A stretch of DNA of 34,772 nt from Microcaldota archaeon. GTDB lineage: Archaea > Micrarchaeota > Micrarchaeia > Micrarchaeales > Micrarchaeaceae. Shown here piece by piece: positions 16,203 through 22,251 of the stretch (position 1 is its first letter; every line of letters starts with the position of its first letter). The DNA is taken from the NCBI GenBank assembly GCA_021789815.1, contig JAJYIZ010000008.1, positions 1-34,772 of the forward strand, in the 5' to 3' direction. The position numbers were made by a program, and so were the translations under genes. Under the pieces are notes generated by a model. That model saw nothing but the letters and a program-made list of their open reading frames with translations. It searched no databases and was not told where the DNA came from.

Positions 16203-16628
16203 ATGATTGATGGAATACAGTTCGTGCACTGCGCGATTCCAGACCTAGCACTCAAAGATACGGATACAAAGTACAAGCTCAACGAAGGGGTGACCCTGCC
16301 GCATCCAATTGCGGTGAACGCTGCAAGCGAGGAAAGCGCACTTGAACTATCACGCTCCATTTCTGATACCCCTATAGCATTCGATAAGTCAATATTCATC
16401 AACGGGAAGCTTTCATGCAGTCTGAAATCCAGCTATCTTGTTGGCGTGCGTGACGGCGTAGAAGCTGCAAAGGCGATACGCCTTGACAGCAAGGCGATAC
16501 CATGCATGGATGCATCTGAGGCGCAGGACCTTGACATCTGGATTACGCAGCTCAGGATAGCGATGTTCCTTACAAACTCTGCAAACCTTCACGAGTTGGG
16601 CAATGCCCCGATATACAAAATGAAGTGA
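16203..16628 (+). CDS. Unknown conserved-looking protein upstream of IPP isomerase
   Basis: 141 aa from the ATG; a TTG at 16182 would add seven residues and lies about 33 nt from the TATA box TATTTATATG (about 16145-16154), so either start is possible. Mixed alpha/beta; segments PHPIAVNAASEESALEL, YLVGVRDGVEAAKAIRLD and LDIWITQLRIAMFLTNSA suggest a compact soluble domain. I do not recognise the family. Its TGA lies inside the AGTGA Shine-Dalgarno-like core of the IPP isomerase gene, so the two are coupled and a role near isoprenoid synthesis is possible but unproven. Confidence 0.75.
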   Translation: MIDGIQFVHCAIPDLALKDTDTKYKLNEGVTLPHPIAVNAASEESALELSRSISDTPIAFDKSIFINGKLSCSLKSSYLVGVRDGVEAAKAIRLDSKAIPCMDASEAQDLDIWITQLRIAMFLTNSANLHELGNAPIYKMK

Positions 16629-16632
16629 TACA

Positions 16633-17691
16633 ATACCAGATGACACAACAACGCAGGCTAGGAAACTTCAGCACATACAGATAGTGCTTGAGAAGAACAC
16701 TCAGTACAGGGACAAGAAGACCATGCTGGAGCTGGTCGACATAGAGCCTAAAGGAGGTCCAATAAACCAGAAAAATGTTGACACAGAGGCAGATCTTCTT
16801 GGAAGGCCGATCTCTGCGCCCATCTTCATATCCGGTATGACAGGAGGCCATCCAGAAACCCTAGAAATAAACAAGAATATCGCAATGGCTGCTGCCCGCT
16901 TCAACATTCCTATGGGCGTAGGCAGCCAGCGCGCAATGATGGAGAAGGATTCTCTTGCGTACACGTATGACGTCAAGAAGTTCGCCAGGGAGCTGATACT
17001 GATAGGCAACATAGGAGCATCGAAGCTCCTTGTTTATGATGACAAAAGCGTTCAGCGCGCGCTCGACAGGATCGATGCGGATATGCTTGCGATACATACC
17101 AATCCAGGGCAGGAGAGCATACAGCCCGAAGGCGACCTCAACTTCAGGGGCGTAATGAAAAGGATATTCGAGGTCTCAAGGAACATTAAGCAACCAGTCG
17201 TAGTCAAAGAGGTAGGCAACGGAATATCAAAAGAGGTCGCAGCATCGCTCAATGGGCATGTCTATGCCATAGACGTGCAGGGTGCAGGCGGCACAACATG
17301 GATAGGTGTAGAGACCTACAGGAACAAGAGCAGGTACGGAAACGCATTCTGGGACTGGGGAATCCCTACGGCGTTGTCTGTGCTCGAAGCTAAGAGCGCT
17401 TTCAAAGGGCCTGTCTGGTCGAGCGGCGGGATACGTACTCCAAAGGACGTTGTAAAATCAATAGCAATAGGAGCAGAGATCTGCGGCATGGCAAAGCCGA
17501 TAATAAGCAGCGAGAGGAGTGCTGGAAGCGACGGTGTATATCTTTTTCTAAGCAAGCTTATTACGGGCGTCAGGAATGAGATGGCAGACCTGGGATTCTC
17601 TTCCATCAAGGAGCTCAGCAACGCAAAGGTCTCTTTCAGGGAGCCTCTAAACAGCATACTGAAACAGAGAAGAATCCTAAAACAAAAATAA
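16633..17691 (+). CDS. fni: Type 2 isopentenyl-diphosphate isomerase (FMN-dependent), probable AUA start
   Basis: Interconverts IPP and DMAPP using reduced FMN, the isomerase step of archaeal isoprenoid synthesis. Motifs: GMTGG, GIGSQ-type sequence MGVGSQRAM, HTNPGQESIQPEGD with the catalytic Gln and Mg-binding Glu, KEVGNGIS, and FMN-phosphate loop SSGGIRTPKD. The only canonical start is GTG at 16684 (335 aa), but the frame is open and family-like upstream: IPDDTTTQARKLQHIQI aligns with MPDIVNRKVEHVEI of Sulfolobus shibatae IDI-2, including the conserved Arg-Lys...His. No ATG, GTG or TTG occurs there. The codon at the predicted Met is ATA (16633), and AGTGA lies 4 nt before it. I annotate from ATA (352 aa); the family call is certain, the start is not. 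Confidence 0.93.
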   Translation: MPDDTTTQARKLQHIQIVLEKNTQYRDKKTMLELVDIEPKGGPINQKNVDTEADLLGRPISAPIFISGMTGGHPETLEINKNIAMAAARFNIPMGVGSQRAMMEKDSLAYTYDVKKFARELILIGNIGASKLLVYDDKSVQRALDRIDADMLAIHTNPGQESIQPEGDLNFRGVMKRIFEVSRNIKQPVVVKEVGNGISKEVAASLNGHVYAIDVQGAGGTTWIGVETYRNKSRYGNAFWDWGIPTALSVLEAKSAFKGPVWSSGGIRTPKDVVKSIAIGAEICGMAKPIISSERSAGSDGVYLFLSKLITGVRNEMADLGFSSIKELSNAKVSFREPLNSILKQRRILKQK

Positions 17692-18363: not shown

Positions 18364-18810
18364 ATGCAGAGAATAGAGATCAGAGTGATCGAACGTCCTG
18401 ATGATGACGACCCTGAGAAGATGCTTAGATGGTTCGTTGCAGTCCTGGGCCTTGCAAGCGACCAGAAGTCAGGAATTGAAGAGCAGATACTAAAGGACTT
18501 TGCATATGCTGCAAAGGAGGGCATAGACGGCCTATCAAGCTCAGAACTGAGGTTTGACAAGGAGGTGCCAAGAAGCACTGTAATATACCATCTCAACAGG
18601 TTCATCGATTCAGGAGTGCTTGTCAAGAAGGGGCGCAAGTATCATCTAAGAGCCAACGAAATGGAGAAGGTTGTCCAGGAACTGGAGTATGACATAGAGA
18701 GAGAAATGAGAAGGATGCTCGATACAGCAAAGGAATTCGACAGGCTTTTCACAGCAAGAAGCGGTGAGGTGATAAAATTACCGAGAATGAAGAGACCAAA
18801 GGAGAAGTAG
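18364..18810 (+). CDS. Winged helix-turn-helix regulator heading the grpE-dnaK-dnaJ cluster
   Basis: 148 aa. After an N-terminal strand region (MQRIEIRVIERPDDDD), residues about 55-100 make a winged HTH with recognition segment LSSSELRFDKEVPRSTVIYHL and wing VLVKKGRKYHL. A C-terminal helix (EYDIEREMRRMLDTAKEF) suits dimerisation. Position as the first gene before grpE suggests a heat-shock regulator, analogous in role to archaeal Phr or bacterial HrcA but not shown to be homologous. GGTTGGGGTACT precedes the ATG. An upstream ATG at 18348 hits a stop after nine codons. The last 34 nt overlap the predicted AUU-started grpE. Confidence 0.8.
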   Translation: MQRIEIRVIERPDDDDPEKMLRWFVAVLGLASDQKSGIEEQILKDFAYAAKEGIDGLSSSELRFDKEVPRSTVIYHLNRFIDSGVLVKKGRKYHLRANEMEKVVQELEYDIEREMRRMLDTAKEFDRLFTARSGEVIKLPRMKRPKEK

Positions 18811-19268
18811 AAGAAAAGAAAAATGATGATTACGCCGAACTGAAGGAGCGGATGCTCAGGCTCGCCGCAGAATTCGACAACTACAAGAAAAGAATCAAGT
18901 CTGACATGGAGAAGGCCGAGAACGTCGGCAAGGCAGAGCTTGTGAGGGATATGCTACCGATACTGGACGAGTTTGAACTCGCAATACTTACGATAAACGG
19001 ATCGCAGGACAAGACGTTCACAAAGGGAATAGAGATGGTATACTCAAATCTATTGGACGTACTTGAGCGGGAAGGGCTAGAAGAGCTCAGCACAGACGGA
19101 GTGTTCGATCCATATAAGCATGAGATAGTTGTATCGAAACCGGACGGAAAGAAGAAAGCTGGCACGATACTAGAGGTCATAAAGAAGGGTTATGCTTTCA
19201 AGGGAGTAATGCTGAGGCCCGCCTCAGTGATAATCGCAAAGGAAGAGGACAAAACTGATGCTAAATAA
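18777..19268 (+). CDS. grpE: GrpE nucleotide exchange factor, probable AUU start
   Basis: Exchanges ADP for ATP on DnaK. The core [12 protein letters not shown], the [10 protein letters not shown] helix and the beta domain ending [18 protein letters not shown] are classic GrpE. The first ATG (18852) would give 138 aa and delete most of the N-terminal coiled coil. The frame is open for 25 more codons upstream and reads [18 protein letters not shown] then YAELKER, the acidic tail and helix expected of GrpE. No ATG, GTG or TTG occurs there. Codon 18777 is ATT, preceded by GAGGTGA, a near-perfect Shine-Dalgarno, exactly 4 nt away, as in front of dnaK. I annotate from ATT (163 aa); the start needs N-terminal proof. 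Confidence 0.93.
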
Positions 19269-19279
19269 TTGGTGAAACA

Positions 19280-21130
19280 ATGGCAAAAATAATCGGAATA
19301 GACCTTGGAACTTCGAACTCAGCGGCGGCCGTTCTGGAAGGCGGCCGCCCTGTGATAATACCGAGCAGCGAAGGAACCTCAATGTACGGGAAGGCCTTCC
19401 CCAGCTTCGTGGCTTTCACGAAGGACGGCCAACGCTTGGTGGGCGAGCCTGCAAGACGTCAGGCTATCGCAAATCCAGATGGAACTGCATTCGCTTTCAA
19501 GAGGAAGATGGGAACAGACTACAAGTACAAGATATTCGGGAAGGAATATTCTCCGCAGGAGCTGTCTGCGATACTCCTTCAAAAAATAAAGAAGGACGCA
19601 GAGGCATTCTTGGGCGAGGAGGTCAAGAAGGCCGTCATTACGGTGCCTGCGTACTTCAACGACAACCAGAGACAGGCTACAAAAGACGCAGGCGAGATAG
19701 CCGGCCTTGAGGTAGTGAGGCTGGTCAACGAACCAACAGCCGCAGCACTGGCATATGGTGTAGACAAATCAAACAGGGAGATGAAGATTATGGTCTACGA
19801 CCTTGGTGGCGGAACACTTGACGTCACAATTATGGATTTCGGCAAGGGTGTCTTCGAAGTTGTCTCCACAAGCGGAGACACTCAGCTTGGCGGCACAGAC
19901 ATGGACAACGCGATAGTTGACATGCTTGTAAAGGAGATAAAGACACAGACAAGCATTGACATAACAAAGGACCACCAGGCAATGCAGAGGCTTAGAGAAG
20001 CAGGAGAGAAAGCGAAGATAGAGCTCTCTACGACACTGAGCAGCGAGATAAACCTGCCGTTCCTTTCAAAGGATGCAAAGGGCAACCCAGTTAACTTCAC
20101 ATACAATTTCACAAGAGCGAAATTGGAAGCACTGGTTGTTCCAATAATAGAAAAATCTGCAAAGTCTGTGATGCAGGCGCTCAAGGACGGAAAACTTGAG
20201 CCGAGCCAGCTTGACAAAGTTATACTTGTGGGGGGCCCTACAAGAATGCCGATAGTGCAGAGGTACGTCGAGCAGCTTCTCGGGAAGAAGGTTGAAAGAG
20301 GAGTAGACCCTATGGAGTGTGTGGCACTTGGTGCAGCAATACAAGCAGGTGTCCTGACCGGTGAAGTGAAGGACATAGTCCTTCTCGACGTTACCCCGCT
20401 ATCGCTATCCATAGAAACCCTTGGAGGAGTGGCAACAAAGCTGATAGAGCGTAACACAACAATACCTGTGAAGAGGTCGCAGATATTCACAACAGCGGAT
20501 GACATGCAGGATCGTGTAGACATACACATAACCCAGGGAGAGCGTGCACTATCGAGAGACAACGTAGACCTTGGAAGGTTCACTCTAACAGGGATACCAC
20601 CTGCGCGTCGTGGAATACCCCAGATAGAGGTGACGTTCGACATAGACTCGAACGGAATACTACATGTCACCGCAAAGGACATCAAGACCGGAAAGTCTCA
20701 GGGCATGGACATAGTTGCTCCGCACAAGATGAGCAAAGACGACATAGAGAAGAAGATGGAAGATGCGAAACAGTTCGAAGAGCAGGACAAGAAAATAATG
20801 GAGCAGGTCGAACTGAAGAACGGTGCAGAGTCACTCATCTACACGACAGAGAGGTCTCTGGAAGAATACAAGGACAAGGTGCCGAAGGACGTGGCAGAGA
20901 AGATAACCAAAGCAAAGGACGAACTATCTGAGGCAGTCAAAAAGGAAGACTACGATGAGATGAAGTCGAAGATGGACGCCCTGAAGAGCGCGCTTGAGGA
21001 GATCGGCGCTGCTATGTACAAAGGTGGAGAGCAAGGCCAGAGTACAGAAGCAGGGCCTGGCCCAGAGTCTGGGGCGGATCAAGGAAGCGATCCAAGCGCA
21101 ACAGACACAGACTTCAAGGTAGAGAAATGA
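19280..21130 (+). CDS. dnaK: Chaperone DnaK (Hsp70)
   Basis: 616 aa Hsp70 with N-terminal ATPase domain ([15 protein letters not shown], phosphate loop 2 [23 protein letters not shown]), the [11 protein letters not shown] linker, the substrate-binding beta domain and a helical lid, ending in an acidic Gly/Ser-rich tail. Shine-Dalgarno GGTGA lies 4 nt before the ATG and 12 nt after the grpE stop. Archaeal DnaK systems are patchy and generally thought to be acquired from bacteria; here the full grpE-dnaK-dnaJ set is together with a regulator. Confidence 0.98.
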
Positions 21131-21135
21131 TCTAG

Positions 21136-22251
21136 ATGGATAAGGACTACTACAAGATACTCGGTGTGCAGCATAATGCTAGCCCTGACCAAATAAAGAA
21201 TGCATATAGGGAACTCGCACTGAAATTCCATCCGGATCGCAACAAAGACAAAGGAGCTGAGGAGCACTTCAAACAGGTGAACGAGGCCTATGCTGTCCTG
21301 AGCGATCCAGAAAAGAGGCAGCAGTACGATGCGTACGGACCGGATGCATTCAGCCAGAGGTACACACAAGAAGATATATTCAGGAACTTCAACATCGAAG
21401 ATGTACTCAGGCAGATGGGCTTCCAGTTCGGATTTGGTGGAAATCAAGATTTATTCAGCATGTTTGGCTTTGGGGACCAGGGGGCATCTAGGAACATTGA
21501 CCTCGGCAGCGACATACTCGCCGGAACAGAGGTTACTTTGAGAGAGGCCGCTACCGGAACAGAAAAGAAACTGCATGTAAACCACGTCAAGAGGTGTGAG
21601 ACATGCAGTGGAAGCGGTGGTACCGGCATCACAAAATGCAAGAGATGTGGAGGAAGCGGCCAGGCAAGGACTACAACAAGGACACCATTCGGTGTAATGC
21701 AGGTGGTGACAACATGCCCGGAATGTGGTGGCAGGGGCAAGACCGTTGAGAAGGTCTGCAGAACATGCAAGGGTCATGGAAGGGTGCGCACCGAAGACAA
21801 GATTGATTTCAAGATTCCACAAGGAGTTGACAACGGAACAAGGCTGAGAGTCAAAGGCATGGGTGACTATGGTGCAGATAGAACCGGAGACCTCTATGTC
21901 GATGTTAAGGTATCAAAAGATAAGATATTTACAAGGCAGGGCAACGATCTGCTGCTTGAGCTGCACGTTCCGTTCTATGTTGCTGCTTTGGGAGGAACAA
22001 CAACCGTTGAGACTCTAGATGGAAACGAGCACATAAAGATAGAGCCTGGCACACAGACCGGGGCAAACATCTACCTGAACAACAAGGGGATGCCGAAGTT
22101 CAACGGCAGCGGGCATGGGGACGAGATAGTAAGAATAATAGTCGACACTCCAAAAGGACTGAGTGCAGAGCAGAAAGCCTTGCTCGAGAGGTTTAGCGAG
22201 CTCGATTCTGGCAAGAAACCTGATAGCAAGAAAAAATTCGGAATATTTTGA
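21136..22251 (+). CDS. dnaJ: Chaperone DnaJ (Hsp40, type I)
   Basis: 371 aa. The J domain has HPD at residues 32-34. A short G/F region includes [12 protein letters not shown]. The zinc domain has four CxxCxGxG repeats, [24 protein letters not shown] and CRTCKGHG (Cys 154/157, 168/171, 194/197, 208/211), all intact. The C-terminal substrate domain follows. It stimulates DnaK ATPase and delivers unfolded clients. It starts 5 nt after the dnaK stop, so it is in the same operon. The G/F linker is shorter than in E. coli DnaJ. Confidence 0.98.

Follow-up and report, generated by a model that had tools for sequence, protein, structure and literature searches.

A putative AUU initiation codon of grpE in a Micrarchaeota archaeon and apparent near-cognate starts in its relatives

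Where does translation of grpE begin in an archaeon whose gene offers no standard start codon ahead of its conserved coding sequence? The question arises in a 34,772-nucleotide stretch of Micrarchaeota DNA (the window, that is, the whole stretch that was analysed), in which the grpE frame is open from position 18768, behind a TGA at 18765-18767, as far as the TAA at 19266-19268. ATG, GTG and TTG are absent from this frame ahead of an ATG at 18852. On this point, open reading frame (ORF) analysis agrees with a previous reading of the letters alone (the sequence-only reading), which had described the frame as free of these codons back to a stop near 18765 and had proposed an AUU start behind a strong Shine-Dalgarno, inside the preceding regulator gene. 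Judged from comparison with related genomes, it is highly probable that grpE is translated from the AUU at 18777, placed by its Shine-Dalgarno, as an example of start-codon choice that has become relaxed across the lineage.

The grpE frame and its AUU codon

The features concerned are all located on the forward (+) strand:

18364..18810, + strand: ORF of the preceding wHTH-like regulator, which overlaps grpE by 34 nt and, in each of the four species with AUU, ends 31 nt past that codon
18766..18773, + strand: Shine-Dalgarno GAGGTGAT, 3 nt ahead of ATT and identical at 8 of 9 nt to GGAGGTGAT
18777..18779, + strand: putative AUU initiation codon of grpE
18777..19268, + strand: grpE coding sequence from AUU, 163 amino acids (Pfam GrpE PF01025, E 4.8e-38)
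18852..18854, + strand: first in-frame ATG, encoding the Met of ELKERM; an internal codon and unlikely start
19280..21130, + strand: dnaK, the contrasting gene, with ATG in all Micrarchaeota loci examined

Membership of the product in the GrpE family is indicated by a profile match over its length (profile positions 12-165 of 165, residues 6-158 of the stop-to-stop ORF) and by its genomic partners, HSP70 (19280-21130) and DnaJ (21136-22251), both encoded directly 3' of grpE. All coordinates given in the sequence-only reading are correct: the ATT lies 4 nt (TAAA) past GAGGTGA and 34 nt within the regulator ORF, and dnaK has the same geometry, with GGTGA, 4 nt and ATG 19280. GAGGTGAT is an 8-nt match to the archaeal Shine-Dalgarno, and its 3-nt spacing is the commonest among Shine-Dalgarno-preceded standard starts of the same genome (60 of 87). 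The anti-Shine-Dalgarno was taken from archaea in general, because 16S (SSU) rRNA was looked for in the organism's own assembly and not found there. When GGTGANNNNATH was scanned genome-wide, 42 matches were obtained, compared with 31 for a control in which the pattern was reversed. Thirty of the matches were read, and grpE alone stood out clearly among them: its ORF is long, no standard start precedes the ATT, and the next one follows 25 codons later. A few weaker candidates stood beside it.

No standard start precedes the conserved coding sequence of grpE, and the Shine-Dalgarno stands at the usual spacing of the genome. AUU 18777 is very probably the start codon of the gene rather than a sequencing error. 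In the proposed mechanism, a CAU initiator tRNA would be placed on AUU by the near-perfect extended Shine-Dalgarno (GAGGUGAU, 3-nt spacing), which would offset the third-position mismatch of the codon. Both actual initiation at AUU and the amino acid inserted there are what we infer under this mechanism.

The grpE start codon in related genomes

The genomes of relatives are mostly metagenome assemblies. grpE was found in seven of the nine genomes of the genus, including that of the window (G000). At the homologous codon, with equal Shine-Dalgarno spacing, ATT occurs in G000, G001, G002 and G006, which represent four species, ATA in G008, and ATG in G005 and G007; relatives also place ATG, GTG or TTG at the spacing that ATT occupies in grpE. 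No grpE and no neighbouring regulator were found in G003 or in G004, the latter an assembly of 4 contigs with 88% completeness; the locus has possibly been lost from both. The sequence-only reading had named ATG at this codon in related strains as the mark of a sequence error, and the outcome of that comparison is mixed, with ATG in G005 and G007 and ATT in four species. As four species share ATT, it reflects evolution and not a read error. A sequencing or assembly error would accord with the use of metagenome assemblies and with the ATG of two genus members; however, it is scarcely credible, given that ATT recurs in independently assembled genomes of four species that differ from one another around it.

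The stretch between the regulator stop and ATG 18852 evolves as coding sequence, because the synonymous and non-synonymous codon differences among the four ATT species number 24 and 27 there and stand in a similar ratio past ATG 18852 (112:114). This bears on a start at ATG 18852, with the upstream frame either untranslated or just regulator sequence. The codon is the first standard start and has GGAG 3 nt upstream; nevertheless, such a start is improbable. In particular, the Met of the ELKERM-type motif is also present in G005 and G007, whose ATG starts lie at least 38 codons upstream, the codons for DYAELKER show only synonymous changes between G000 and G006, and the Pfam GrpE profile already matches from residue 6 of the stop-to-stop ORF. 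The sequence-only reading held that starting at 18852 would remove much of the functional helix, which is partly right: the acidic tail would be lost entirely and, from the helix, its conserved ELKER part.

In G006, an in-frame TAA sits directly ahead of the ATT of grpE, which rules out both an upstream start and read-in for that genome. The same TAA argues against GrpE being a -1 frameshift product of the regulator that needs no separate start. The 34-nt overlap of the two frames and the A run within ATAAAATTA of G000 speak for such a product, but the run is missing in G002 (ATAGCATTA), and in G005, G007 and G008 the regulator ends at or ahead of the grpE start. A frameshifted product is therefore very improbable, and a regulator-GrpE frameshift fusion was rejected because there is no conserved slippery site. 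AUU as the initiation codon of grpE, the central proposal of the sequence-only reading, is well supported by conservation, by Shine-Dalgarno spacing and by coding-type evolution upstream of 18852.

Elsewhere in the Micrarchaeota, grpE appears to start at CTG (L066) and at ACG (L093 and probably L091), and a weak start (ATT, ATA, CTG, ACG, GTG or TTG) was assigned to it in 22 of 80 distinct loci. A standard start precedes the conserved motif in all 18 grpE loci retrieved from outside the Micrarchaeota. The Shine-Dalgarno match of near-cognate grpE starts is 5-8 nt, compared with a mean of 4.4 for ATG starts (Mann-Whitney p = 8e-6, a value inflated by the relatedness of the four ATT species and by the placing of starts via the Shine-Dalgarno). 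Belinky et al. (2017; PMC5622118) reported compensation of GUG and UUG starts by a stronger Shine-Dalgarno, and the difference seen here agrees with it. Moreover, throughout the window's own genome, a Shine-Dalgarno precedes near-cognate codons located upstream of a gene's first standard start more often than it precedes other codons (odds ratio 4.8, p = 0.002).

Putative near-cognate starts in other genes

A survey of the same genome, made on stretches that cover 388 kb of its 679 kb and contain 354 genes, revealed other genes with a conserved N-terminus ahead of any standard start. The following features are considered here; those with an L number lie on other contigs of this genome:

16633..16635, + strand: putative AUA initiation codon of type 2 isopentenyl-diphosphate isomerase (IDI-2), with AGTGAT upstream at 16624-16629
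16633..17691, + strand: IDI-2 coding sequence from AUA (TIGR02151, E 5.8e-98)
L156:7796-8734, contig C2, - strand: ornithine carbamoyltransferase, with a candidate CTG start directly past an in-frame stop
L159:12568, contig C29: PIN-domain protein, with a candidate ACG start behind GTGAT; PF01850 begins at the next codon
L156:2054-4753, contig C2, - strand: ORF of 900 amino acids with an HtpX-like N-terminal part and no standard start for 83 codons

IDI-2 appears to start at AUA 16633, as TIGR02151 already matches upstream of GTG 16684; this GTG is the first standard start and the codon at which gene callers would begin the gene. The codon aligned to this ATA is ATG in G001, G003, G004 and G007 and ATA in G002. 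In ornithine carbamoyltransferase, the next standard start follows 39 codons after CTG, and TIGR00658 matches from residue 3. The homologous first codon is mostly ATG, TTG or GTG in relatives, with the exception of ACG in G002, ATA in G001, G012 and G014, and CTG in G033, G212 and G221. A near-cognate first codon (CTG, ACG or ATA) is thus found in 8 of 54 genomes of the family and in none of 51 others (p = 0.006). Judged by genus and codon, these eight cases would represent at least six changes; G002, G212 and G221 are less certain than the other five because a standard codon lies 2-3 codons downstream.

The PIN-domain protein apparently initiates at ACG, and a HerA/CedB-like ATPase with an ACG start in the same genome is a weaker case. 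In other Micrarchaeota, dnaJ was assigned an ATA start (L033) and a CTG start (L088). None of the cases surveyed needed AAG or AGG as a start. In the ORF with the HtpX-like part, the two highest-ranking NCBIfam models match from residues 14-17 onwards; for this candidate, as for dnaJ of L063 and the CTG of MetRS, a standard or leaderless start also fits. The MetRS CTG was dropped as ambiguous, since an in-frame GTG lies 3 codons upstream and the start could be leaderless. Other candidates were set aside because of a standard codon upstream in frame (GTG for the ATA of L29, ATG for the CTG of SRP54) or because a downstream ATG fits (RNase HII).

Most likely, this Micrarchaeota family tolerates start codons with one mismatch, usually behind a good Shine-Dalgarno. 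Its genes would repeatedly drift from AUG to AUU, AUA, CUG and ACG, besides GUG and UUG, while dnaK keeps AUG. There is an even chance that stringency is lowered in general, such that ribosomes initiate at nearly all one-mismatch codons and the starts of moderately expressed genes change in a nearly neutral way; the probable source would be a change in initiation factors, ribosome or tRNA modification. Starts other than ATG, GTG and TTG are rarely called by gene finders for prokaryotes, and table 11 does not even list ACG as a start. Applied to this lineage, such programs would shorten or overlook genuine genes, among them those of ornithine carbamoyltransferase and IDI-2.

Regulation, overlap and known systems

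The sequence-only reading further suggested that the AUU throttles expression of the chaperone cofactor, in the manner of infC. Autocontrol of infC depends on the bacterial factor IF3, which discriminates its own start. Work on infC is among that cited in PMC9845219. As in infC of Escherichia coli and other bacteria, the AUU of grpE is conserved across related species; unlike bacterial infC, grpE is archaeal and unrelated to initiation, its start is one of several near-cognate starts, and its AUU is replaced by ATA or ATG in sister species. A deliberate brake that keeps GrpE low in relation to DnaK, perhaps with an initiation factor as its sensor, would fit both the retention of ATT across four species and the constant ATG of dnaK in a group where grpE often receives a weak start. 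Such a brake is nonetheless unlikely. The same type of start occurs in proteins without a chaperone role (ornithine carbamoyltransferase, IDI-2 and the PIN-domain protein) and varies freely between sister species, the Shine-Dalgarno at grpE is strengthened and not weakened, two genus members have ATG, and dual coding by itself could preserve ATT. Because near-cognate starts recur in unrelated genes, and in dnaJ as well, throttling of the infC type is not supported; such starts are not confined to a gene with a product or partner that senses the codon. The tendency of grpE towards weaker starts than dnaK is compatible with a tuning of expression.

Under relaxed start-codon choice, the overlap with the regulator (an ORF that gave no match in a Pfam search at E 0.001) probably helps to hold AUU in place. 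The base following ATT is A in all four ATT species; thus, any NTG start, together with the A of the next codon, ACC, would give TGA in the regulator frame and cut off the basic C-terminal tail of the regulator. One mutation turning an ancestral ATGA into ATTA could have changed the two genes simultaneously and been retained thereafter. The overlap alone fails to explain G008, in which the start reads ATAA and the regulator stop is the same with ATA or ATG.

In eukaryotes, near-cognate initiation occurs at CUG, ACG, AUA and AUU, and AAG and AGG are the poorest codons. The Micrarchaeota starts resemble it in the set of codons tolerated, in the lack of accepted AAG or AGG and in an aIF1/aIF2-type system. 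They differ in that the codon would be placed by a Shine-Dalgarno and not by scanning and is apparently the main and only start of its gene. Among prokaryotes, Belinky et al. (2017; PMC5622118) recorded two AUG-to-CUG changes and one AUG-to-AUU change in 61,358 annotated AUG starts. The starts described here likewise extend beyond GUG and UUG, with weak starts tending toward a stronger Shine-Dalgarno, but are far commoner (8 of 105 ornithine carbamoyltransferases) than in that survey, which used annotated starts. A literature search, with subscription journals mostly outside its scope, found no description of near-cognate starts in Micrarchaeota. If the relaxed-start reading is true, a prokaryotic lineage that combines eukaryote-like near-cognate codons with a Shine-Dalgarno would lend itself naturally to testing what determines start-codon stringency in the shared aIF1/aIF2 machinery.

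Two simple causes of relaxed starts were rejected. SUI1 occurs in each of the nine genus genomes, which speaks against a loss of aIF1, and a normal tRNA-Met(CAU) with archaeal initiator features in the window's own genome speaks against a changed initiator anticodon. In Sulfolobus, aIF1 has been reported to act against non-canonical starts (as cited in PMC6237735 and PMC8211752). With both aIF1 and the CAU initiator tRNA present, the relaxation would not be the simple loss of either. The same genome also encodes a tRNA-Ile with anticodon UAU (L304, contig C11). Such a tRNA is unusual in archaea, in which a modified CAU anticodon normally decodes AUA.
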